Source of the DNA: Candidatus Gastranaerophilales bacterium
GTDB lineage: Bacteria > Cyanobacteriota > Vampirovibrionia > Gastranaerophilales > Gastranaerophilaceae
NCBI GenBank assembly: GCA_944325825.1
Contig: CALVBP010000013.1
Coordinates: forward strand, 1 to 52,063
Direction: 5' to 3'
Length of the DNA stretch: 52,063 bases
Translations under genes and position numbers: made by a program
The notes under the pieces: model-generated
The model's input: only the letters and a program-made list of their open reading frames with translations
What the model was told of the DNA's origin: nothing
Database searches by the model: none
In this document: positions 1,204-14,605 of the stretch, piece by piece
Layout: each line of letters opens with the position of its first letter
Numbering within the stretch: the first letter of the stretch is position 1

Positions 1204-1239
1204 AGTTATGGAGCCCTTGCGGGGAACGCCCTCCCCTGC

Positions 1240-1366
1240 TCGGGGAGGGTCGGGGTGGGGAGCAATCACAGGTATTTTTCGGTAGAAAAATTCAACAGCA
1301 CGAGTTTTTCTTTCTTTGGGAGCGTTTCTTTCTTTTTTCATCGTAAAAAAAAGAAAGAAATGCTCT
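1240..1366. repeat. Dispersed GC-rich plus hairpin element, copy A
   Basis: Bases 1240-1316 match the reverse complement of 3482-3560 closely (shared blocks include GGGGTGGGGAGCA, TCACAGG and TTTTTCGGTAGAAAAA). Immediately after comes a T/A-rich hairpin (about 1320-1338 with 1344-1365, loop CATCG). A hairpin of the same type is attached to the other copy, so both parts move or persist together. Confidence 0.7.
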
Positions 1367-3335: not shown

Positions 3336-3366
3336 AAAAGGAACCTTGGTAAAAGGTTCCTTTTTT
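3336..3366 (+). terminator. Rho-independent terminator of rpsO
   Basis: A 12-bp stem (AAAAGGAACCTT / AAGGTTCCTTTT) with a 5-base loop is followed by a T run, 20 bases after the rpsO stop. Confidence 0.92.
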
Positions 3367-3375
3367 GTTTATAAA

Positions 3376-3783
3376 TTTACATAAAATGTATTATTTAGCT
3401 TAATCGGGGCTGCTGCCGCCCCGTCCCCCGCACCAACATTCTTTCTTTTTTCTTGCGATACAAAAAGAAAGAATGTTGGACAAGAAAGAAAAACAACGCA
3501 CTGTTGCATTTTTCTACCGAAAAATGCCTGTGACTGCTCCCCACCCCCAGCCCTCACCGAGTTGGGGAGTGGGCTAAGTTTATTTACCCCTGCGGGCGTG
3601 TGACGCAGTCACCATAGCCCGCAAAAGAGTGCAGGCTATGCCTACTACAGCCATTTTATCTGATGCTCTTCGGGCATAGAAAACAACACGTGTTTTCTTT
3701 TTCTTTTCGTACTTTTCTTTTTCTTTGCTTCGCAAATAAAGAAAAAGAAAAGTACAAAGATAAAATAATACATTTTATGTAAA
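3376..3783. mobile_element. 408-bp non-coding MITE-like element with 20-bp perfect terminal inverted repeats
   Basis: The left end (3376-3395) is TTTACATAAAATGTATTATT and the right end (3764-3783) is its exact reverse complement. Nothing inside codes for a plausible protein. Internal features are a perfect 18-bp stem hairpin (3433-3450 with 3462-3479), an inverted relative of the 1240-1316 block (3482-3560), and a second perfect 18-bp stem hairpin (3709-3726 with 3738-3755). I cannot define a clear target duplication beyond a possible AAA on both sides. It sits exactly between the rpsO terminator and the mutS2 promoter. MITE-like is an inference from structure; no transposase is present in the window. 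Confidence 0.65.
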
Positions 3784-3815: not shown

Positions 3816-3844
3816 TTGCTTTGCTTTCTTGTTCTCTTTATAAT
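3816..3844 (+). promoter_or_regulatory. mutS2 promoter placing the start codon almost at +1
   Basis: The -35 is TTGCTT (3816-3821), followed by a 17-base spacer and a perfect TATAAT (3839-3844). Only nine bases separate the -10 from the ATG at 3854, so transcription would start within a few bases of the start codon. Confidence 0.65.
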
Positions 3845-3853
3845 CATACTACA

Positions 3854-6211
3854 ATGAGTATTGTCCAAACATCACAAATTGCACTTGAATATGATAAGAT
3901 TCTGGCTGAACTTGCTAACTTTGCAAAAACAGACCAGTCCAAAGAATTATGCTTAAATCTTACTCCTTACATAAAATATGAAGATATTGAGCGAGAAATC
4001 CGCTATACCAGAGAAGCTAAAGATGTTTTAGATCTGGCAAGAGATATTCCTGTCGAAAAAATTCAGCATTTTGACACTTTGAAAAGAAAAAATGAATACT
4101 TTACGGAAGAAGAACTGGTCGACATAGCAAAAACTATGCGTACATTCAGACTTGTTAAAAATTTTTTAAAAGAGAATCTGATATTTGATTCAACTCTATC
4201 CGGACTCTTAGAAAATTTATACGCAAATAAAGAATTTGAAGATAAAATTCTGAACACTTTTGATGATAATTATACCGTTAAGCAAGATGCAAATCCCGAA
4301 CTTAAAGGGCTATATTCTTCTCTTAAAGATACAGAAAGCACTCTTAAACAAAAAGTGCAAGAACTGATGAATTCAGCGGAATTTCAATCTCATCTTCAGG
4401 AAAATATTTACACTAAAAGAGATGACAGAATTGTATTTCAAGTAAAAGCCTCCTCTAAGAGTAAGGTTTCCGGTATCGTTCACGATGTATCAGCAACTAA
4501 TAAGACTTTTTACATAGAACCCGCTCAAATCGTTCCGCTAAATAATAAAATAAGAGAAGTCCGCTCGAAAATTTATGCTGAAATAATACGAATACTTACC
4601 GCTCTAAGCTTTGAAATCAGAAAAGAGTTAGACAACCTTATTCTCTCTGAAAAGACTCTGGCTGAAATAGATTTTCATTTCGCAAAGGCTCGCTACGCAG
4701 TTAGAATTCAGGCTGTCGAACCGGAACTTACAAGAAATCGTGAAGTTAAAATCGACCTAATGAGACACCCCCTTTTAATAGGCAGGGTTAATAACATTGT
4801 AGAAAATGATTTTGAAATCGGCAACGAATACAAATCTATTATAATTACCGGTTCTAATACCGGCGGGAAGACTGTTGCGTTGAAAACAGTAGGATTATTC
4901 CTCCTAATGACAAAATCCGGAATATTTCTTCCCTGTGCAGAAGCCCGTATTCATCCGTTTGAAAAAATACTGGCCGATATCGGAGACGAACAGAGTATTT
5001 TACAAAACCTCTCCACTTTTTCATCCCACATGAAAAATGTTATTAATATTTTAAAACTGGCAGATAAAGATACCTTCGTTTTAATAGACGAGCTCTGTGC
5101 CGGAACAGACCCTCAAGAAGGCGCTATTTTAGCAGAAATTATTATGAAAAATCTGGCTAAAAAAGAAGCCTTTTCCGTCATTACAACACACTACGGAGAA
5201 CTCAAAACTCTGGAATTTATTGACCCGTATTTTAAAAATGCAAGCGTTGAGTTTGATACAGAGTCTCTATCTCCTACATTTAAGCTTATAATCGGAATTC
5301 CGGGTTTGAGTAATGCTATTTCTATTTCTGCAAACCTGGGACTTGATGAAGAGTTGGTTTGGGAAGCTAAAGAATTATTGATAACCCAGCGAGATCCCTC
5401 AAGCCTGATGGTCGAAAGACTTCAGGATACCCAGCAAAAACTCGATATAAACTTAAAAGAAGCTGAATCTTTAAATGCTCAAGCAGATGAACTAAAACAA
5501 CATTATGAAAAAGAATTATCACAACACAAAAAAGATAAGAAAAAAACATTGAAAGTAATACAAGATAAATTCGAAACGCAACTGGATGAGGCTAAAAACG
5601 AGATTAAAGAAATCTTGAATGAACTGCGGCAAGAAAAATCCGAAAAAATTGCAAGACGAGCATACAGCAGGCTTGCAAAAATGGAACAATCTTTCAGAAA
5701 AGATGTGCACTCTTTTGAAGAACAAGAAGACTATACCGAACTTGACTGGACTCTCGTTCAAGCCGGTGATATCGTTATGATAAAAGACTTAAATCAACAA
5801 GTAAAAGTACTTTCTCTCCCTGACAAAAACAACAGTCTCTTTATCCAGATGGGAATGATAAAAACAAAAGTCAAAAAAGACAGGCTCGCAGTTTACAATC
5901 CTGAACTCGCTAAAAAAGTAATTTTACCCAATATCAAGCAAGAAACTTTCACTCTGAAAAAATATGATATCTCAAATACTCTTGATTTAAGAGGCGAAAG
6001 AGTCGAAGAAGCACTTGATAATTTAGAAAATTACCTTGATAAAGCAAGCCTTGCTAACCTTTCCCCCGTTTATATAATCCACGGTCACGGAACAGGAGCT
6101 TTAAAATCCGCTGTCAGAGATTTTGTTTCGACTTCTCCATATGTCGCAAAGTATCGTATCGGTGAAGATGCTGAAGGCGGAGACGGAGTTTGTGTTATTG
6201 ATATAAAATAA
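3854..6211 (+). CDS. mutS2: Endonuclease MutS2
   Basis: This is a DNA mismatch-repair ATPase homologue without the mismatch-recognition domain. In other bacteria MutS2 limits recombination or acts on collided ribosomes. The 785 residues comprise an N-terminal coiled/core region, a P-loop GSNTGGKTVALKT at about 333-345, a Walker B region FVLIDELCAGTDPQEG, a long coiled coil (about 520-620), and a C-terminal Smr nuclease domain starting at LDLRGE (about 710) and containing IHGHGTGAL. The first residue of the Walker A is GS where many MutS2 have GP. I chose ATG 3854. An in-frame TTG at 3821 lies within the promoter. There is no Shine-Dalgarno sequence, which fits a leaderless or near-leaderless mRNA. 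Confidence 0.93.
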   Translation: MSIVQTSQIALEYDKILAELANFAKTDQSKELCLNLTPYIKYEDIEREIRYTREAKDVLDLARDIPVEKIQHFDTLKRKNEYFTEEELVDIAKTMRTFRLVKNFLKENLIFDSTLSGLLENLYANKEFEDKILNTFDDNYTVKQDANPELKGLYSSLKDTESTLKQKVQELMNSAEFQSHLQENIYTKRDDRIVFQVKASSKSKVSGIVHDVSATNKTFYIEPAQIVPLNNKIREVRSKIYAEIIRILTALSFEIRKELDNLILSEKTLAEIDFHFAKARYAVRIQAVEPELTRNREVKIDLMRHPLLIGRVNNIVENDFEIGNEYKSIIITGSNTGGKTVALKTVGLFLLMTKSGIFLPCAEARIHPFEKILADIGDEQSILQNLSTFSSHMKNVINILKLADKDTFVLIDELCAGTDPQEGAILAEIIMKNLAKKEAFSVITTHYGELKTLEFIDPYFKNASVEFDTESLSPTFKLIIGIPGLSNAISISANLGLDEELVWEAKELLITQRDPSSLMVERLQDTQQKLDINLKEAESLNAQADELKQHYEKELSQHKKDKKKTLKVIQDKFETQLDEAKNEIKEILNELRQEKSEKIARRAYSRLAKMEQSFRKDVHSFEEQEDYTELDWTLVQAGDIVMIKDLNQQVKVLSLPDKNNSLFIQMGMIKTKVKKDRLAVYNPELAKKVILPNIKQETFTLKKYDISNTLDLRGERVEEALDNLENYLDKASLANLSPVYIIHGHGTGALKSAVRDFVSTSPYVAKYRIGEDAEGGDGVCVIDIK

Positions 6212-6219
6212 ACTCCCCC

Positions 6220-6248
6220 TTCACAAACCTTTTTAAATCCTGTATAAT
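6220..6248 (+). promoter_or_regulatory. aroE promoter
   Basis: The -35 is TTCACA (6220-6225), followed by a 17-base spacer and TATAAT (6243-6248). The aroE ATG is 24 bases downstream of the -10 and has a strong ribosome binding site. Confidence 0.65.
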
Positions 6249-6272
6249 TAACTTGTTCTTGGAGGAGAGAAT

Positions 6273-7115
6273 ATGTATAAGTTGGGAATAATCGGATATC
6301 CGCTGTCACATTCTATTTCTGCCGCTATTCAAAAAGCCGGATTTGAGAGTTTAAGTTTGGATGGTTCATATGATGTTTTAGAAACTCCGCCGGAGGATTT
6401 AATATCAAGGATTAAGTTCCTAAAATCAAATAACTATGCCGGATTTAATGTCACGATACCTTTAAAAGTTCCCATGTCTTTATTTCTGGATGACATTGAT
6501 GATTATGCAAATATTGCAGGCTGTGTTAATACTGTTAAAATTATGCCTGACAAAACTTTTATCGGATATAACACTGATATTTACGGGTTTAAAATGGCAA
6601 TACCTAATGATATAAATCTTACGGGTAAGCTTGCAAGCATCCTTGGAACGGGCGGGGCAGCAAGAGCTGCAGTCGTAGGACTTGCCGAAAGAGGAATTAA
6701 AGAAATCGATTTGTATACCCGAAATATTATTAATTCCAGACAAACACTGGATTATATGAGAGCCAAATTTCCGGAAATAATTTTTAATGTTTATCAAATC
6801 CAGAATATCAGAAGTTTAAAAGATACAGCTATTGTGGTTAATGCAACTCCTATAGGTATGAAAGGCTTTATGGCAAATGAAATGCCTCTTGAATGCAAAG
6901 ATTTAGATAATCTGAATTCTGAAACTATAGTTTATGATATAGTTTATAACCCCATAAGGACAGTGCTCCTAAATGAAGCACAAAAGCGTGGGTTAAGAAC
7001 AATAAGCGGGTTAGATATGCTTATTTATCAGGCTCAACGGGCTATAGAAATTTGGACAGGCTTAAAACCGGATGTCAATTTGATGAAAATAGCAGCTCTG
7101 GAAGCTTTACAGTAA
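6273..7115 (+). CDS. aroE: Shikimate dehydrogenase (NADP+)
   Basis: It reduces 3-dehydroshikimate to shikimate in aromatic amino acid synthesis. The 280 residues are the normal length. The shikimate-binding SHSIS is at 12-16, the catalytic Lys is in NVTIPLK (Lys65), the Asp is in YNTD (Asp102), the nucleotide-binding loop GTGGAARAA is at 125-133, and NATPIGM plus the C-terminal GLDMLIYQAQRA motif are present. All key residues are in place. The start is supported by GGAGGA at 6261-6266. It has its own promoter and is followed by a separate promoter for the next operon. Confidence 0.96.
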   Translation: MYKLGIIGYPLSHSISAAIQKAGFESLSLDGSYDVLETPPEDLISRIKFLKSNNYAGFNVTIPLKVPMSLFLDDIDDYANIAGCVNTVKIMPDKTFIGYNTDIYGFKMAIPNDINLTGKLASILGTGGAARAAVVGLAERGIKEIDLYTRNIINSRQTLDYMRAKFPEIIFNVYQIQNIRSLKDTAIVVNATPIGMKGFMANEMPLECKDLDNLNSETIVYDIVYNPIRTVLLNEAQKRGLRTISGLDMLIYQAQRAIEIWTGLKPDVNLMKIAALEALQ

Positions 7116-7137
7116 CTTCATAAAAGTTCTAAAAACC

Positions 7138-7166
7138 TTGCGAAAGGTAAAGTTTTAAGTTACAAT
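7138..7166 (+). promoter_or_regulatory. Promoter of the nine-gene operon 7189-14388
   Basis: The -35 is TTGCGA (7138-7143), followed by a 17-base spacer and TACAAT (7161-7166). The AAGGAG ribosome site and ATG 7189 follow directly. I see no terminator between here and 14401. Confidence 0.6.
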
Positions 7167-7188
7167 CTATAAACAAGGAGAGAACTTT

Positions 7189-7449
7189 ATGACAGAAAAG
7201 AAGGTCATTGAGCTTGTCGGACGCAGCAATACAGACGGGAATAAAAAGCATTTGTGTTGCAGTTTTTGCGGTCGGGAATATAATGATGTTCTTAAAATGG
7301 TAAAAGGTCCGGGAGTAAATATTTGCTCCGAATGTGTGATGATTGCGGTACAATACCTCATATTAAAAGATTCTATGCCTTCAGAAGATGCACAAAAAAT
7401 TCTTGATGCATTCTGGGGGAATGCGCATAAAGGAGGCAAGGAGAACTGA
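7189..7449 (+). CDS. Stand-alone ClpX-type zinc-finger protein
   Basis: An 86-residue protein with the C4 zinc motif of the ClpX N-terminal domain: CSFCGRE at about 25-31 and CSECV at about 47-51. It includes the surrounding pattern ..VKGPGVNICSECV.. that in ClpX binds zinc, adaptors and unfolded substrates. There is no AAA+ domain after it; the frame ends with a normal stop, and the next gene starts two bases later. It may serve as an adaptor or substrate-delivery factor for a Clp machine, which is interesting because a Clp-N-only protein is encoded in the same operon. Function is inferred from the domain only. Confidence 0.8.
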   Translation: MTEKKVIELVGRSNTDGNKKHLCCSFCGREYNDVLKMVKGPGVNICSECVMIAVQYLILKDSMPSEDAQKILDAFWGNAHKGGKEN

Positions 7450-7451
7450 TT

Positions 7452-9047
7452 ATGAATAAAATTCAAATAAAAGCAGAAGTTTTAGCAACATTAAATGCTA
7501 TTCAAACAGCATCATTCCCAAACCCCTCTCTGCTTACGGATTTAAAAAATATAGAAGACAAAAAAACCATTCTTGATATTCTAATAAAAGAGCTTGTGAA
7601 TGCATCTGAGAATAGAGCTCTTATTATTTGCTGGCTTTTAACGGAACTTATTGAAAAAGATACTCTTAATGATGAATTATGGAATGTTATCAAAAGCCCC
7701 GATTACAATGACCATGTTAAAATGATTGCCTTTAACATGCTAAAAGACCTGGGAAACAAAATTGACTACGATGTTATCAGCGGATACTTTGAACAATTTA
7801 ATGAACTAATTAACAAAGAAACCAAAGAATTATTGGAATCTGCCATTATGAATCCTGAAGCACAAATAGACTTCATGGATTTTTTGAATGCAATTTCTGA
7901 TGATGATAAAATAATTCTGATAAAATCTTTAGAAGAAGATTATGCTTATGATGCCTTAGCAAATATTCTTATTCCGGTCTTTATTTATTACCAAAATTCT
8001 CCTGTCGGGGAAAAAGCACTTGAAATTTTAGGCAGAACAAAATCTCAATTAGCATTTCATGCCTTAGATAATGCAAAAAAATACGCAGAAGAACCTCTTT
8101 TATCAAAAATTAACAAGGCTCTTTCAGAGTTAAAGTTGTCGGGAATAAGAGTTGATAATACTCTTGAATTTTACAAAAACATTTTAAAAGAATCTAAACC
8201 TTACAAAACCTACGTTTCTTTTCCTGACGGACACGGAAATATCGCAATAATATTTTCAAGAATAAGACCGAATAAAACTCTCCAATTCTTAGCCATTGTA
8301 ATCAATGCCAGATACGGAATTCTGGATGCGTTTGGGTTCAACGCAATGAATGAAAGGGATTTTTACAGAATTGTAGACAAATTCTATAATTATCAAGAAC
8401 GATATGAGGTTGAACCCGGAATTGTTAAATATTTTATAAATCAGGCTCTTGAAAATTCTTATACTAATAAGGAACCAATACCTTATGAATATATATGCTG
8501 GGAAAGTATTCTCCTTGATATAGAACCAACCCGTCCGGAAATTAACCTTGAGAAAAAAGAACTTAACCAAAAAGAAATTGATAAACTCTGTCTAAATGAA
8601 TATGTCCAAAACTGGTTCTTTGATGAAATAACTTCTCCTGAATTTAAAGAACTTATTGACAAATTATCTAAAGAGTTCAAAACAAACAACTTTAACGTCG
8701 ATTTGGATAAGTTTATTGCGGATAATTTCGATAGCATATTTACAGCAAAAGAGCTCGCATACCAAATTGTAAAATTTAATACAGCTGCTTATTTAAGGCA
8801 TCTAAAAGGTGATGACGAACTCGCTCAGATATTTTACTCACTGAATACTAATTATGCATTTTTAACAAATATAATAAGAAAAAGTATCTACGAGTATTAT
8901 ATTGGCAAGCGGTATCTGCTTAAAAATCAAAGAAAAACTTCCAATCTATTTGAACAAAAAATGCATCCGCAAACAGGCGATTTCGAGCTGCTGCAGCTGG
9001 ATATGATAATTGCATCTATTGAAGCTAAGTGGGTGGATAATGCATAA
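7452..9047 (+). CDS. HEAT-like repeat protein of unknown function
   Basis: The 531 residues are almost entirely alpha-helical. The first 240 read as helical pairs of the HEAT/ARM type, with repeated amphipathic helices such as LLTELIEKDTLNDELWNVI. The second half (about 250-530) is another helical domain with many Lys, Glu and aromatic residues and no catalytic motif that I recognise. There is no signal peptide or membrane segment, so it is cytoplasmic. The start ATG has AAGGAG just upstream and follows the zinc-finger gene by two bases. The stop overlaps the start of ruvX. The conserved operon position suggests a housekeeping scaffold role, but I cannot name it. Confidence 0.75.
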   Translation: MNKIQIKAEVLATLNAIQTASFPNPSLLTDLKNIEDKKTILDILIKELVNASENRALIICWLLTELIEKDTLNDELWNVIKSPDYNDHVKMIAFNMLKDLGNKIDYDVISGYFEQFNELINKETKELLESAIMNPEAQIDFMDFLNAISDDDKIILIKSLEEDYAYDALANILIPVFIYYQNSPVGEKALEILGRTKSQLAFHALDNAKKYAEEPLLSKINKALSELKLSGIRVDNTLEFYKNILKESKPYKTYVSFPDGHGNIAIIFSRIRPNKTLQFLAIVINARYGILDAFGFNAMNERDFYRIVDKFYNYQERYEVEPGIVKYFINQALENSYTNKEPIPYEYICWESILLDIEPTRPEINLEKKELNQKEIDKLCLNEYVQNWFFDEITSPEFKELIDKLSKEFKTNNFNVDLDKFIADNFDSIFTAKELAYQIVKFNTAAYLRHLKGDDELAQIFYSLNTNYAFLTNIIRKSIYEYYIGKRYLLKNQRKTSNLFEQKMHPQTGDFELLQLDMIIASIEAKWVDNA

Positions 9048-9438
9048 AGTTATGGCGCTGGATGTCGGAACTAAAAGAATCGGGATAGCCCTAAGTGACT
9101 ATCTCCAAGTTATTGCGACTCCGCATTCGTTTATATCCCGCCAGCCGGAAGATAAGGCTATAGAAGAAATTACAAAAATAGCAAAAGAAAACAGAGTTGA
9201 GAAAATAGTAGTGGGGGTTCCGAAAAATATGGACGGTTCGGAAGGCTTTCAAGCAAAAGATTGTATAAATTTCTCACAAAAAATTTCTGGTTTTGATATA
9301 ATACTAGAAGATGAAAGGCTTACTTCCGAAGAGGCTGAAGAAAGGCTTCGCGCAAGAAAAGTAGATTTCAGAAAAAATAAAGGTCTTGTGGATATGGAAA
9401 GCGCTTGTGTTATACTTGAACAATATTTAGGAAAGTGA
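9040..9438 (+). CDS. ruvX: Putative pre-16S rRNA nuclease / Holliday junction resolvase-like RuvX (YqgF)
   Basis: The 132 residues have the RNase-H-like fold of the YqgF family. Hallmarks are ALDVGTKRIGIALSD near the N-terminus (first catalytic Asp), VVGVPKNMDGSEG in the middle, DERLTSEEAEERL (second acidic cluster), and a C-terminal KGLVDMESACVILEQYL with the last Asp. YqgF proteins process 16S rRNA precursors, and a recombination role is also proposed. The ATG at 9040 overlaps the preceding stop by 8 bases. ATG 9052 is an alternative. The neighbouring DUF1292 gene repeats a gene order well known from Firmicutes. Confidence 0.93.
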   Translation: MHKVMALDVGTKRIGIALSDYLQVIATPHSFISRQPEDKAIEEITKIAKENRVEKIVVGVPKNMDGSEGFQAKDCINFSQKISGFDIILEDERLTSEEAEERLRARKVDFRKNKGLVDMESACVILEQYLGK

Positions 9439-9441
9439 ATT

Positions 9442-9723
9442 ATGGCAGACGAAGAACAAAACTATGTGGAAATCCTTGATGAAGAAGGTAATGTAACAAA
9501 ATGCGAAATTTATGATGTCGTAGATATGGACGGAAAAACATATGCTATGCTGCTTCCGTTGAGTGAAGATGAAAATGACGATGACTCCGAAGTTATTGTT
9601 ATGGAGTATATCGAAGAAGGTGATGACGGATATTTTCAGAACATAGAAAGTGATGAAGAATTCCAAAAAGTTTGTGCTTATATTCAATCTTTGGATGATG
9701 AAGATGAAGAAATCGAGGAATAA
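9442..9723 (+). CDS. DUF1292 (YrzB-family) acidic protein
   Basis: A 93-residue, strongly acidic protein with the DUF1292 pattern: an opening stretch of the type ILDEEGNVTKCEIYDVVDMDGKTYA, then LLP..EDD..EVIVMEYIEEGDDGYFQNIESDEEFQKV, and a Glu/Asp tail. The function of the family is unknown. In Firmicutes it is encoded directly after yqgF (yrrK-yrzB), exactly as here, with a three-base gap. It is probably translated together with ruvX and the next gene. Confidence 0.9.
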   Translation: MADEEQNYVEILDEEGNVTKCEIYDVVDMDGKTYAMLLPLSEDENDDDSEVIVMEYIEEGDDGYFQNIESDEEFQKVCAYIQSLDDEDEEIEE

Positions 9724-9725
9724 TT

Positions 9726-11075
9726 TTGTTTGAACGTTTTACGGAAAAAGCTATTAATGCGGTTAGCGAATCTCAAAGGCTTGCTAAAGAATTAAAAAGT
9801 CCGGAAGTCTTTCCGGAACACCTTTTACTTGCGCTTGTCAGAGAAGCAAAAGGGGTATCGTTAAAACTCTTTAGAATGTATGGCATTAGTAGTGAAACTT
9901 TAGAAAACGAGGTTATTAAATATACTCTAAAAACGTCGAAGCAAAATGAAAACATTCCTTTTAGCCACAGCTACAAAGATTTATTGAAACATACTCTGGA
10001 CTTGGCTTCAAAATCCGGAAATACTAATATTTTGTTTGAACATTTATTTCTGACGGTAATTACGGAAAAGAATTCCAACATTCAAACTATACTGGAACAT
10101 TTTAAATTTGACATTTATAATGCTCGAGAAATCTTAACAAAACTTGTTCAAAAGAAAATTAAAAAGCTGGAACATCCAGAAGTTGAAGAGGATGACGAAA
10201 AAAATAATAACTTTGAATCTATCTATGAAGGAAAAGAATTAACCGACGTATTTGCCAGAGCCGTATCAAAAGTTTCCGCAGCAGGTTACGAAATAGTTGG
10301 AACAGAACAAATTATGGCATCTATACTGGAATCAGAACCTTCCAATCTTTTAGAAACAATCCATTCTAACGGAATAAATGTGAACAATTTTGAAGATAAG
10401 CTCTCCAGCATTAAATCCCGGCAGAGTGAATATGAAGGTAAAAAAATTATATTTACCCCTAATGCATTTTTAATGATGAATCAAGCACTTCAAACCGCAA
10501 AAGAACTGGGCTCTTCTGTCATAATGCCGGAACATATTGTTTTAAGTATCTTAAAAAATAAAAAAGGACTGGCTTACGAAATAATAAAATCTCTCGGGGT
10601 AAATGAAGATAAGTTATCTGAAGAAATTTTGAAACCTATTGAAAAACAAATGCCGGAAACTCTGCTTATAATGAAGCTTGCAAAAGAAGAAGCAAGAAGA
10701 ATCGGCAGAAATATCGTAGGGACGGAAATGTTTCTGCTTGGTATTCTGGCAGAAGGAACAAGTGTAGCATTCAAAGTCTTAAGTAATCTTGAAATTACTC
10801 TCAAAGATGCAAGGCTGGTTGTTGAGAGCCTTGTGGGCTACGGAAATGAATATTTTGATAAAGAAATAGTTTTTACCAAACGGGCAAAAAGAGTTCTGGA
10901 AAAAGCCTGGATTTCTGCTAAAAAAGCAAATAAAGACAAAATCGAAGCAGTCGATTTGCTATCAGCAATAATTAATGAACCGAACTCTCTTGCGATGAAA
11001 GTTCTGGATACACTCGGCGTTGATGCAGTGGAAATAAAACACGGTATTCTGGGAATAAATGAACAGTATAAATAG
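9726..11075 (+). CDS. Protein made of three tandem Clp-N domains, no AAA+ ATPase
   Basis: The start is TTG at 9726, two bases after the previous stop, with GAGGA upstream. The 449 residues contain six Clp-N half repeats. Each carries the family pattern (hydrophobic)-x3-A-x3-A-...-EHLLLAL-x-(20 residues)-LGV/YGI, beginning near residues 5, 80, 170, 245, 310 and 378. ClpA/ClpB/ClpC carry a single two-half-repeat domain before their ATPase rings. Here three domains are joined, and no Walker motif follows. ClpS/McsB-type adaptor or substrate binding is known for Clp-N domains. A chaperone-docking or decoy role for this protein is inference. Confidence 0.82.
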   Translation: MFERFTEKAINAVSESQRLAKELKSPEVFPEHLLLALVREAKGVSLKLFRMYGISSETLENEVIKYTLKTSKQNENIPFSHSYKDLLKHTLDLASKSGNTNILFEHLFLTVITEKNSNIQTILEHFKFDIYNAREILTKLVQKKIKKLEHPEVEEDDEKNNNFESIYEGKELTDVFARAVSKVSAAGYEIVGTEQIMASILESEPSNLLETIHSNGINVNNFEDKLSSIKSRQSEYEGKKIIFTPNAFLMMNQALQTAKELGSSVIMPEHIVLSILKNKKGLAYEIIKSLGVNEDKLSEEILKPIEKQMPETLLIMKLAKEEARRIGRNIVGTEMFLLGILAEGTSVAFKVLSNLEITLKDARLVVESLVGYGNEYFDKEIVFTKRAKRVLEKAWISAKKANKDKIEAVDLLSAIINEPNSLAMKVLDTLGVDAVEIKHGILGINEQYK

Positions 11076-11087
11076 GATTAAATCTTA

Positions 11088-12464
11088 ATGCAAGGACTTT
11101 GCGAAAAGGTTATCAATTTTTTAAACGAGTATGAATTGCGGGATAAGACTATTATTGTAGGATTTTCCGGCGGATACGACTCAATGTGTCTGCTTGACGT
11201 ATTATCAGAAATAAAAAAGCTGGACGAATTTGAAGACTTAAACATAGTTGCGGCTCATTATAATCATAATTGGAGAGGCGAAGAATCTCTCAGAGAACAG
11301 GAAGTCTGCCGGCTTTTTGCAGCAAGCAGAGGCTTTGAATTTTATACTCAAAATGCCCCTGCTACTTTAAAGAAAACTGAAGCTGATGCAAGGAAAGCTC
11401 GTTACGAATTCTTTGAAGAAGCTTATGAAGAATATGATGCCGATGCGGTTTTTACGGCGCATAATAAAGATGATAATGCTGAAACTGTACTATATAGAGT
11501 AATAAAAGGAACCGGGGTTGTCGGATTAAAAGGTATTTCCGAAAAAAGAGGATACTTTTACAGACCTCTTTTAAAAATCGGCCGGGAAGAAATTGTGTCA
11601 TATTGTGACAGCCGCAACCTTTCACCTAATATGGATTCTTCAAATAATAATACGGCTTACAGGAGAAACTATATCCGGCTGAATATCATTCCTGCTCTTG
11701 AAAAAATAAATCCTATGGTAAAAGACAGTCTCAACAGCCTTGCAGAAGTCGCAAGAAGTGACGATGAAATTATAGAAGAATATTTAAACACCTTCAGAAA
11801 CAAAATTTATAATAAAGAATCTATATTATCAACGGAATATAAAAAACTTTCAGTCCCTGTAAAGTTAAGGATTATACATGAGTATATACAAAAATTTAAC
11901 CTTGACTATGACAGGAAACGAATCTGCGAAATTTTTGATTTTATAGAGAATAATATAAACCACCGAAACGGGAGTACTCTTTCTCTGGCTGCAGCATTAT
12001 GGCTTTATGTAGATGATAAAATCATTGAGACAATCCCCCATAAGGAAAAAACTATCGAAGAAATAAAGCCCGAAATACTGATATCCGGTGAGGGTGAATA
12101 TAAGGTGGGGAACAAATTATTTGTTATTAAAAAATATATTCCCAAAGATGTTTTTGTATTTCCGGAATCTGCAGCTAATTTTGTTTACGCTGATTTATCC
12201 GGAATTGAATTTCCGCTTACTCTGCGCACGAGAAGAGACGGTGATATTATAAATCCTTTTGGAATGCGCGGAAGCATGAAACTTAAAAAATATATGAATT
12301 CAAAGGGGGTTTCCCGCCACAAAAGAGATGATATATTACTTCTTACAAATAATGAAGAAGTATTGTGGGTTGTGGGAGCCGGTTTAAGTAATAAAATTGG
12401 GGTTAAAAATACCCCAACACATGTTATTGAAGTTATTGAGGTTAATAATGATAAAAGAAACTGA
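11088..12464 (+). CDS. tilS: tRNA(Ile)-lysidine synthetase
   Basis: It converts C34 of the CAU-anticodon tRNA-Ile to lysidine using ATP and lysine. Of its 458 residues, the PP-loop SGGYDS lies at 27-32 (the more usual SGGxDS), the HYNHNWRGEES-like segment and the TAHNKDDNAETVLYR motif follow, and FYRPLL precedes the substrate-binding helices. The C-terminal TilS domain (LRTRRDGDIINPFGMRGSMKLKKYM) is intact, so it is full length. It overlaps hpt by 17 bases, the same tilS-hpt order as in Firmicutes. Confidence 0.95.
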   Translation: MQGLCEKVINFLNEYELRDKTIIVGFSGGYDSMCLLDVLSEIKKLDEFEDLNIVAAHYNHNWRGEESLREQEVCRLFAASRGFEFYTQNAPATLKKTEADARKARYEFFEEAYEEYDADAVFTAHNKDDNAETVLYRVIKGTGVVGLKGISEKRGYFYRPLLKIGREEIVSYCDSRNLSPNMDSSNNNTAYRRNYIRLNIIPALEKINPMVKDSLNSLAEVARSDDEIIEEYLNTFRNKIYNKESILSTEYKKLSVPVKLRIIHEYIQKFNLDYDRKRICEIFDFIENNINHRNGSTLSLAAALWLYVDDKIIETIPHKEKTIEEIKPEILISGEGEYKVGNKLFVIKKYIPKDVFVFPESAANFVYADLSGIEFPLTLRTRRDGDIINPFGMRGSMKLKKYMNSKGVSRHKRDDILLLTNNEEVLWVVGAGLSNKIGVKNTPTHVIEVIEVNNDKRN

Positions 12465-12987
12465 TTTAAATGTTTTATTTGAAGAGAACCTAATTCAGAG
12501 TAAAATCTCGGAATTGGGAGAAAAACTTAATAAAGAATACGGAGATGAAATTGTTTATTTAATATGTGTTCTAAAAGGCTCTGTTATGTTTCTTGTTGAC
12601 CTTTCAAAACATTTAAAAATGCCTTTAAGAATGGAATTTATAAGGCTTTCCAGTTATGGTTCGGATTTTACATCCTCCGGCAGGGTTAATGCAGTTGATA
12701 TATCATTACCCGACTTGAATGACAAAAACGTACTTATTATAGAAGATATAATTGATACAGGACATACCGCTAAATTCCTTATTGATTTTATTAAACATAA
12801 TTTCAAAACAAAGAGCTTGAAATTCTGTTCACTTTTAGATAAAAAAATTAAAAGAGAAGTTGAAATTGATCCGGACTATTACGCATTTGAAGTCGATGAT
12901 AAATTTCTCGTCGGATATGGACTTGATTATGACGGATATTACAGGAATCTTCCTTATATCGGATATGTAGAATTAAAGGAGGGATAA
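12448..12987 (+). CDS. hpt: Hypoxanthine (guanine) phosphoribosyltransferase
   Basis: A purine salvage enzyme making IMP/GMP from hypoxanthine/guanine and PRPP. The 179 residues include the PRPP-binding VLIIEDIIDTGHT at about 95-107, the VLKGSVMFLVDL loop near 41-52, the RLSSYGSDFTSSG flexible loop, and a C-terminal LVGYGLDYDGYYRNLPYIG. The frame extends upstream into tilS, but ATG 12448 has GAGG upstream and gives the conserved N-terminus. It is translationally coupled to tilS and to the flavodiiron gene, whose ATG overlaps the hpt stop. Confidence 0.95.
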   Translation: MIKETDLNVLFEENLIQSKISELGEKLNKEYGDEIVYLICVLKGSVMFLVDLSKHLKMPLRMEFIRLSSYGSDFTSSGRVNAVDISLPDLNDKNVLIIEDIIDTGHTAKFLIDFIKHNFKTKSLKFCSLLDKKIKREVEIDPDYYAFEVDDKFLVGYGLDYDGYYRNLPYIGYVELKEG

Positions 12988-14192
12988 TGAATAATATAAG
13001 AGAAATAGAGAATAATTTATATTATATTGGTTGTTCTGACAGAAGGCTTGCCCTTTTTGAAAGCGCCTATCCTGTTCCGGACGGAATGTCATATAATTCC
13101 TACCTTCTGAATGATGAAAAAACAGTCCTTCTTGATACCGTAGATAAAAGCTGTTCCGAACAATTTTTTGAAAATTTAGCAGCAGCTCTTGCAGGGAAAA
13201 AACTAGACTATATTATAGTACACCATATGGAACCGGACCACTGCGCACTTTTACAAGATGTTATAAGTATTTATCCGGAAGTTAAAATAGTATGTACTCA
13301 AAAAACTCTTAATATGATAAACCAGTTTTTTGATTTCGATACAGAAAACAGGGTTATGCTTGTTAAAGAGGGAGAAAGCTTAAATACCGGCTCGCATGAG
13401 TTTGTATTTTATATGGCGCCGATGGTTCACTGGCCTGAAGTTATGGTAAGTTACGAAAAGAAGAATAAAATACTCTTCTCTGCGGATGCTTTCGGTTCCT
13501 TCGGTGCAATAAACGGTAATCTTTTTGATAATGAAGTTAATTGGGAGAGAGATTATCTTGATGAAGCTAGAAGATATTATACAAATATTGTCGGCAAGTA
13601 TGGACTTCAAGTTCAAATGCTCTTAAAAAAGGCTGCCGGACTTGAGATAAAAATGATTTGTCCGCTTCATGGACTTATTATTAAAGAGAATATCGGCTTA
13701 TTCGCAGAAAAGTATGATAAATGGTCGAGTTATACTCCGGAAAAAAGTGGAGTATTAATAGCTTATACTTCCGTATACGGTGGAACTGAAAATGCTATGA
13801 ATATACTTGCCGGGATGCTTGCAGATAATGGGATAAAAGATATAAAGATGTATGATTTATCATACACACATTACTCTAAAGTTCTTTCCGAGTGTTTTAA
13901 ATACTCAAATTTAGTACTGGGAACAACAACCTATAATGGCGGAATATTTGAATCAATGCAGAATTTTCTGCATATATTAACAGCACACAACCTCCAGAAC
14001 AGGAAAATAACACTTATAGAAAACGGTTCTTGGGCACCTGTATGCGGAAGTCAAATGAAAGGGATTTTGGAAGGATTAAAGGGAACAGAATTCCTTGAAC
14101 CCGGACTTTGTATCAAGTCTACTCTTAAAAATAACCAGATTGATGAACTTGAAAATGTTGTAAATACAATAGTAAAATCTTTGAAATTATAG
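12987..14192 (+). CDS. Flavodiiron protein (A-type, O2/NO reductase)
   Basis: The 401 residues have an N-terminal metallo-beta-lactamase-like diiron domain and a C-terminal flavodoxin domain. The diiron ligand motif H-x-E-x-DH is at residues 80-85 (HMEPDH), with further His/Asp in MVHWPEVM, SADAFGSFG and CPLHGLII. The FMN-binding loop is in the segment IAYTSVYGGTENAM at about 258-271. Such proteins reduce O2 or NO to water or N2O with electrons from rubredoxin, which is encoded directly downstream. The start codon overlaps the previous stop (TAATG), with AAGGAGGG upstream. It fits an anaerobe that must remove oxygen. Confidence 0.95.
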   Translation: MNNIREIENNLYYIGCSDRRLALFESAYPVPDGMSYNSYLLNDEKTVLLDTVDKSCSEQFFENLAAALAGKKLDYIIVHHMEPDHCALLQDVISIYPEVKIVCTQKTLNMINQFFDFDTENRVMLVKEGESLNTGSHEFVFYMAPMVHWPEVMVSYEKKNKILFSADAFGSFGAINGNLFDNEVNWERDYLDEARRYYTNIVGKYGLQVQMLLKKAAGLEIKMICPLHGLIIKENIGLFAEKYDKWSSYTPEKSGVLIAYTSVYGGTENAMNILAGMLADNGIKDIKMYDLSYTHYSKVLSECFKYSNLVLGTTTYNGGIFESMQNFLHILTAHNLQNRKITLIENGSWAPVCGSQMKGILEGLKGTEFLEPGLCIKSTLKNNQIDELENVVNTIVKSLKL

Positions 14193-14229
14193 TTTAATAT
14201 AAATAATAAAGATTTAAGGAGGATTAGTT

Positions 14230-14388
14230 ATGAAAAAATATGTATGCACAGTATGTCATTATGAATATGACCCTGCAGTAGGTGACCCGGATAATGGAAT
14301 CCAGCCCGGTACAGCTTTTGAAGATTTACCGGCTGATTGGGTTTGCCCGCTTTGCGCTGTTGGCAAGGATATGTTTGAAGCAGAGTAA
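14230..14388 (+). CDS. Rubredoxin
   Basis: A 52-residue protein with two iron-binding Cys pairs, CTVC at 6-9 and CPLC at 39-42. It has the family spacing, the Tyr-rich N-terminus ([12 protein letters not shown]) and the DWVCPLC segment. AAGGAGG sits at 14216-14222, in front of the ATG. As the last gene of the operon, right after the flavodiiron protein, it is the expected electron donor to it. Rubredoxin reductase is not in the window. Confidence 0.95.
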
Positions 14389-14400
14389 AGACAGAAGATG

Positions 14401-14428: not shown

Positions 14429-14605
14429 AGCTCACAGGCAGGAATAGCAGGGAAAATACAATTCAAACCAATCCCCGAAGAACATTTATAGAAATGCGAG
14501 TTTTCTTTTTGTAATTTTATTTTAATAATTCTTTAAAATTAGCTTTTTATTTATTTTTTTTATGTTAATATACTTACACATATCACATTTAACAAGGGAT
14601 ACGGT

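Follow-up and report, generated by a model that had tools for sequence, protein, structure and literature searches.

The non-coding element at positions 3376-3783 of the window (the whole stretch of DNA analysed here, 52,063 nucleotides from a metagenome assembly that was assigned to Candidatus Gastranaerophilales via its best mutS2 relatives) belongs to a mosaic repeat family of the Gastranaerophilales, dispersed and non-coding, of which it is one copy; in their most complete form, the repeats combine palindromic modules between terminal inverted repeats. This form holds a pair of oppositely oriented A/T-rich potential intrastrand triplexes, which flank a BoxC-like G/C-rich potential triplex. 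The explanation that we favour, and judge to be fairly probable, is that of a MITE-like, non-autonomous mosaic repeat that preserves DNA able to form triplexes and acts as a seed of recombination. The kind is already known from the PIT/BoxC-type triplex repeats, which are here found inside a MITE-like mosaic.

The window contains the following parts of the element, together with a shorter second copy.

3376-3396, plus strand: left terminal inverted repeat, 21 bp and exact; the same end occurs in L007 and, with variations, in L042, L045, L047, L061 and L219
3403-3423, plus strand: G/C palindrome ATCGGGGCTGCTGCCGCCCCG, whose start, element position 28, is also the start of most other copies
3433-3479, plus strand: A/T-rich hairpin 1, with an 18-bp stem (pyrimidine arm 3439-3450, purine arm 3462-3473)
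3482-3493, plus strand: mirror-image third strand of hairpin 1 (AAGAAAGAAAAA), matching at 12/12 positions
3506-3527, plus strand: small conserved hairpin GCATTTTTCTACCGAAAAATGC, beside triplex unit 1
3539-3573, minus strand: G/C-rich BoxC-like triplex motif, decayed here (stem mismatches), of which many other copies have an intact version
3592-3622, plus strand: palindromic module GCGGGCGTGTGACGCAGTCACCATAGCCCGC
3629-3679, plus strand: two more small palindromes, GCAGGCTATGCCTAC and GATGCTCTTCGGGCATAG
3694-3708, plus strand: mirror-image third strand of hairpin 2 (TTTCTTTTTCTTTTC), matching at 15/15 positions
3709-3755, plus strand: A/T-rich hairpin 2, with an 18-bp stem, pyrimidine arm first
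3763-3783, minus strand: right terminal inverted repeat
1229-1359, minus strand: shorter second copy of part of the family, with an intact G/C triplex motif at 1229 and an A/T triplex hairpin motif at 1325-1360 with mirror third strand

The terminal inverted repeats, which an earlier note on this DNA had described as perfect over 20 bp, are indeed exact but extend over 21 bp (3376-3396 / 3763-3783), compared with a longest distant inverted repeat of 14 bp in 200 dinucleotide-preserving shuffles of the surrounding 1.4 kb. The two hairpins with perfect 18-bp stems are present as described (3433-3450/3462-3479 and 3709-3726/3738-3755), and the element folded as single-stranded DNA reaches -96 kcal/mol, with z = -12.5 relative to shuffles. 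Its placement between the rpsO terminator and the mutS2 promoter also stands, the terminator lying at 3336-3364 and a TATAAT at 3839-3844 preceding the mutS2 ATG at 3854; this TATAAT was read directly from the sequence, its weak -35 explaining why it is absent from the promoter scan list. As the TATAAT lies 9 bases before the ATG, with similar spacing in many relatives, the arrangement suggests that the mutS2 transcript is leaderless. An Rfam scan of the window returned tRNA only, with no known RNA family at the element.

When the element was compared by BLAST with its own genome, the check that the earlier note had proposed, 86 matches were obtained, some of them overlapping palindromic hits at the same place, and the majority were partial in coverage and without the outer ends. 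The copies, which were read in stretches around these matches, are intergenic, occur in both orientations and are modular, with some palindromic modules held in common and others exchanged. Many matches begin just inward of the terminal repeat, at element position 28, where the constant palindrome ATCGGGGCTGATGCCGCCCCG lies, and the TTTACATAAAATG end is kept in few copies only; similar ends were nevertheless found when sought elsewhere, at the loci listed above. In all, two sets of ends occur, TTTACATAAAATG and a ACAACACAAT palindrome (L003), and the second type, as a TACAACACAATTG..ATTGTGTTGTATAA palindrome, is seen at both ends of L003 1460-1965 and on one side of L018 ~250-345. A complete outer end is itself a hairpin, and orthologous end hairpins carry paired changes: CACCATTTTACATAAAATGGTG in this genome vs CAACATTTTGCATAAAATGTTG in G004 at one site, CACC..GGTG/CAAC..GTTG in L042/L045, and, at a second site, CCACC..GGTGG/GCCCC..GGGGC in L046/L047 (GCCCC..GGGGC being that of G010).

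The block said to be shared in inverted orientation with 1240-1316 does recur there, window positions 1231-1359 having 83% identity to element positions 64-194. Between 1000 and 1700 of the window, this partial copy is interleaved with other repeats, namely GTCACCCTGAACTTGATTCAGGGTC and GTCATTCCGGGCTTTGACCCGGAATC palindromes in near-duplicate blocks (~1000-1215 and ~1400-1615). In G000, contigs C2, C3, C9, C17, C20, C24, C27, C28, C45 and C53 start or stop inside or near family copies; since so many contigs do so, the repeats evidently limit assembly.

Empty sites were sought in relatives and were found: the element is not fixed intergenic DNA. At the C15 junction, it is present in this genome and in G004 and absent in G003, G005 and G011, and in G010 and G007 (L173, L176) unrelated coding insertions stand in place of it; the junction has the look of a hot spot for insertions. 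By eye, one of these insertions is a glycosyltransferase-like gene and the other a small toxin-antitoxin-like pair. Beside clpP, the element occurs in G004, G010 and G015, in the latter two between rubredoxin and clpP, genes that adjoin without an element in G003, G005 and G008. Upstream of mutS2, it is found in L060, L061 and this genome; in L071, L075 and L078, gapA lies beside mutS2 with no element. From the few sites read (rpsO, gapA, rubredoxin and the C15 site), we have the impression that inserted copies tend to lie immediately 3' of intrinsic terminators.

The term ‘MITE-like’ used in the earlier note holds for the gross form of the element, which is small, non-coding and multicopy, with 21 bp of exact terminal inverted repeats and with polymorphic sites, filled and empty, beside terminators; several copies of ~220-560 bp in G004 and G010 are likewise bounded by TTTACATAAAATG-type ends. 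Membership of the MITEs is another matter, as among the matches read most copies are without the terminal repeat and some ends, the ACAACACAAT palindromes of L003, are quite different. We therefore regard as unlikely the reading in which the element is a plain MITE, that is, a deletion derivative of a DNA transposon with TTTACATAAAATG ends that was moved in trans, with its hairpins as roleless passengers. Among the end-pattern hits in 24 genomes (with up to 3 mismatches, and surroundings partly read), no autonomous transposon or other coding element with the same ends was noticed, and no target duplication was resolved, the empty-site relatives being too diverged for base-by-base alignment. 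A plain MITE would also leave the mirror third strand of the hairpins unexplained.

The T/A-rich hairpins had been called unusual, and so they are, but their nature had been missed: they are stems with a mirror-image third strand. In nearly all A/T-rich hairpins, the pyrimidine tract just upstream of the pyrimidine arm is the mirror of that arm, and this on one strand only, a layout that corresponds to a potential intrastrand triplex (PIT) of class IV on the pyrimidine strand and class II on the opposite strand. The strand scored for each hairpin was the one that gave the better third-strand match, and on this basis 81 of the 90 distinct A/T units from the loci in hand have both arms and the third strand on one strand, in mirror register, at a score of at least 0.9. 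The mirror score exceeds the direct score in 76 of these units, equals it in 12 and falls below it in 2, and perfect registers number 53 for the mirror vs 6 for the direct repeat.

The stems vary in their cytosine positions and the third strand follows, as in TTTCTTTCTCTTTT/TTTTCTCTTTCTTT, TTTTTTCTTCTTT/TTTCTTCTTTTTT and TTTTCTCTTCTTTTT/TTTTTCTTCTCTTTT. This covariation was assessed by drawing one unit per distinct arm (n = 24 arms) and swapping third strands in 2000 permutations, the stems being low-complexity (CTTT)-like tracts in which mirror and direct similarity overlap and which the permutation test separates. The mean own-mirror score was 0.939, against 0.829 for own-direct and 0.824 for swapped mirror (sd 0.015, maximum 0.873 in 2000 permutations), in statistics that ignore kinship, the units being related by descent and the 24 arms not phylogenetically independent. 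The third strand hence tracks its stem when the stem differs (0.939 vs 0.824), and perfect mirrors per 24 arms number 14.4 with their own third strands vs 2.4 with swapped ones, with 1.8 perfect direct repeats. These registers indicate that the A/T unit is maintained as a hairpin plus third strand and not as a hairpin alone, the third strand mirroring the pyrimidine arm and changing with it. Selection for a three-stranded fold may fairly be inferred, because templated correction of palindromes would not yield mirror symmetry. Many hairpin loops of A/T units (e.g. L244-L255) have a common (C)ATCGCAA/TCGCAA core across genera, which is superfluous for a triplex and might serve as a protein site.

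By themselves, third strand and pyrimidine arm make up a mirror repeat whose loop is short, as required for H-DNA, and the mirror repeat might thus be kept for a double-stranded triplex to which the hairpin is incidental. We think this quite unlikely, as the units were found via the hairpin and the stem often runs past the pyrimidine tract (e.g. CCAACA/TGTTGG, GTA/TAC), an extension that is unneeded for H-DNA.

The third strand of the G/C-rich module is a mirror too, with T opposite A. In many copies, the module lies between A/T units in the form CCCTCCCC-loop-GGGGAGGG-CTG-GGGTGGGG or CCCTCTCCT-loop-AGGAGAGGG-3 nt-GGGTGAGGA, and 27 of 60 hairpin readings of G/C-rich units (each hairpin being read on both strands) fit at 0.85 or above, vs 0.5% of random stretches. 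Many copies exactly fit a close variant of the BoxC / TM-ECO class II consensus (CCCTCNCCC..GGGNGAGGG..GGGNGAGGG), the stem of the window copy having decayed. The PIT elements, BoxC and TM-ECO of E. coli are known from the work of Hoyne and Maher and of Holder et al. 2015 (PMC4666352). The BoxC/PIT motifs fold into triplexes in vitro and have been linked to rearranged or variable loci in E. coli, but no footprint of the E. coli motif was obtained in vivo, and PIT elements had shown no effect in vivo in earlier functional assays (PMC4666352).

Of 386 genomes of the phylum, 35 contained the exact pattern of one common stem type, and each of these belongs to the same order or is closer still; the same pattern, which represents this one stem type only, was found in none of the sampled photosynthetic Cyanobacteria, and a reversed control pattern gave zero hits in the 386 genomes. 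Units from other genera have an identical layout. The idea of a family specific to the lineage is partly right: the composite occurs in this genus, the hairpin unit in several genera of the order. BLAST gave no match in phage and plasmid collections, where tracts may have been masked by the low-complexity filter, and the conserved small hairpin was found in no viral contig; a phage or plasmid origin was rejected on these grounds. A search of the literature on repeats of Gastranaerophilales returned nothing, the closest paper being PMC4666352.

An intergenic mosaic of palindromes in both orientations would also suit a REP/BIME-type repeat spread by a RAYT (Y1) transposase, and Y1 transposase genes are present in 11 of the 21 genomes searched. 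This origin seems to us very unlikely, the units being longer than REPs and carrying terminal inverted repeats. RAYT-driven dispersal was itself rejected upon finding 0 PF01797 matches in this genome (95% complete, with 86 element matches) or in G004, control genomes being positive. Most improbable of all is a structured RNA or attenuator in which the purine arm could pair with the second pyrimidine tract instead: third strand and arm are similar pyrimidine tracts, with a direct-repeat score that averages 0.83, but the Watson-Crick alternative requires a direct repeat and was rejected as this register is worse than the mirror (1.8 vs 14.4 perfect per 24 arms), the window copy comes after a terminator and before a promoter and is thus probably little transcribed, and the Rfam result in the window speaks against it as well.

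Copies of the family sit at the breakpoints of a gene-block rearrangement, which was followed with the first 20 kb of the window as the synteny query and which involves two further features.

3837-14389, plus strand: block from mutS2 to rubredoxin, moved relative to two near relatives, with an element copy at its mutS2 end here
14430-14523, plus strand: possible degenerate remnant of the element at the far block end, weak (alignment scores 34-52, best shuffles 34-49 by copy)

In G010, one contig reads gapA-element-(mutS2 to rubredoxin)-element-clpP and breaks off within clpP, and a second contig reads rpsO-element-TPR gene; the order in G015 is (mutS2 to rubredoxin)-element-clpP. In this genome, contig C52 carries gapA-element-clpP, and the window carries rpsO-element-(mutS2 to rubredoxin)-TPR gene; clpP was sought past the far element of G010 after this gapA-clpP junction had been seen, and was present. 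Because the genomes without elements include some with gapA beside mutS2 and some with rubredoxin beside clpP, the position of the block in this genome is probably derived. Three of the junctions lie on copies, and the fourth, between the block and the TPR gene, has only the weak possible remnant. The gapA-side copy in this genome has an internal deletion, which could have run between two ATAAAATG stretches. All of the genomes are draft metagenome assemblies in which many contigs end inside copies, and single repeat-mediated joins could be assembly errors; against misassembly, the block-TPR junction lies outside any intact copy, and G010 and G015 independently agree on the clpP side.

Under the favoured explanation, a MITE-like mosaic repeat that maintains triplex-forming DNA, a process akin to transposition, acting in trans, would originally have placed copies beside transcription terminators. 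Upon strand separation, for example on the lagging strand, the motif would fold back into a triple helix, and the copies would then act as dispersed stretches of homology and as sites of fork stalling, and in this way favour recombination between loci. That the sequence folds into a triplex in the cell is a hypothesis for this family as it is for the E. coli motif, which left no footprint in vivo. A broader proposal, which we put forward only tentatively, is that in a bacterial lineage intrastrand DNA triplexes are kept up by natural selection, maybe as fork-stalling or recombination sites on a mobile mosaic element. Since ordinary templated repair of palindromes cannot copy mirror symmetry, the joint change of stem and third strand across many variants would then be comparative evidence for three-stranded folds that form and are of consequence in vivo. 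For specialists, the surprise lies in the extent of this coordinated change, which makes an old question testable: whether intrastrand triplexes form or play a role in living bacteria has been a question ever since PIT elements were described, and the highly conserved E. coli motif leaves little to compare. This family offers many different stems with matching third strands, and with them a comparative test and natural variant pairs for experiments. Its copies also mark gene-order breakpoints in a lineage known almost solely from metagenome assemblies, and break those same assemblies.

Among known systems, the family is like the PIT/BoxC/TM-ECO repeats of E. coli in being intergenic and multicopy, in having a hairpin with a mirror third strand (class II on one strand), in the inverted pairs of its units and in its association with rearranged loci, and the CCCTCCCC..GGGGAGGG..GGGTGGGG module is close to the published BoxC/TM-ECO consensus, including the T opposite A. 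It is unlike them in that the dominant units are A/T-rich, with arms of 10-17 nt and many sequence variants, and in that A/T units, G/C-rich units and other palindromes are combined in one element with terminal inverted repeats, whereas the E. coli BoxC motif is reported not to be associated with transposons (PMC4666352). With MITEs, it shares short length, lack of coding sequence, multiple copies, terminal inverted repeats and polymorphic sites, but it differs from them in its strong internal modular turnover, in that most copies are without the ends, and in that neither an autonomous partner was found nor a target duplication resolved. The homopyrimidine mirror symmetry is that of H-DNA mirror repeats, to which the units here add a complementary purine arm on the same strand. 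Finally, BIMEs are likewise intergenic mosaics of recurrent palindromic modules in both orientations, although the modules of the family described here are others, terminal inverted repeats are present, and no RAYT gene was found in this genome.
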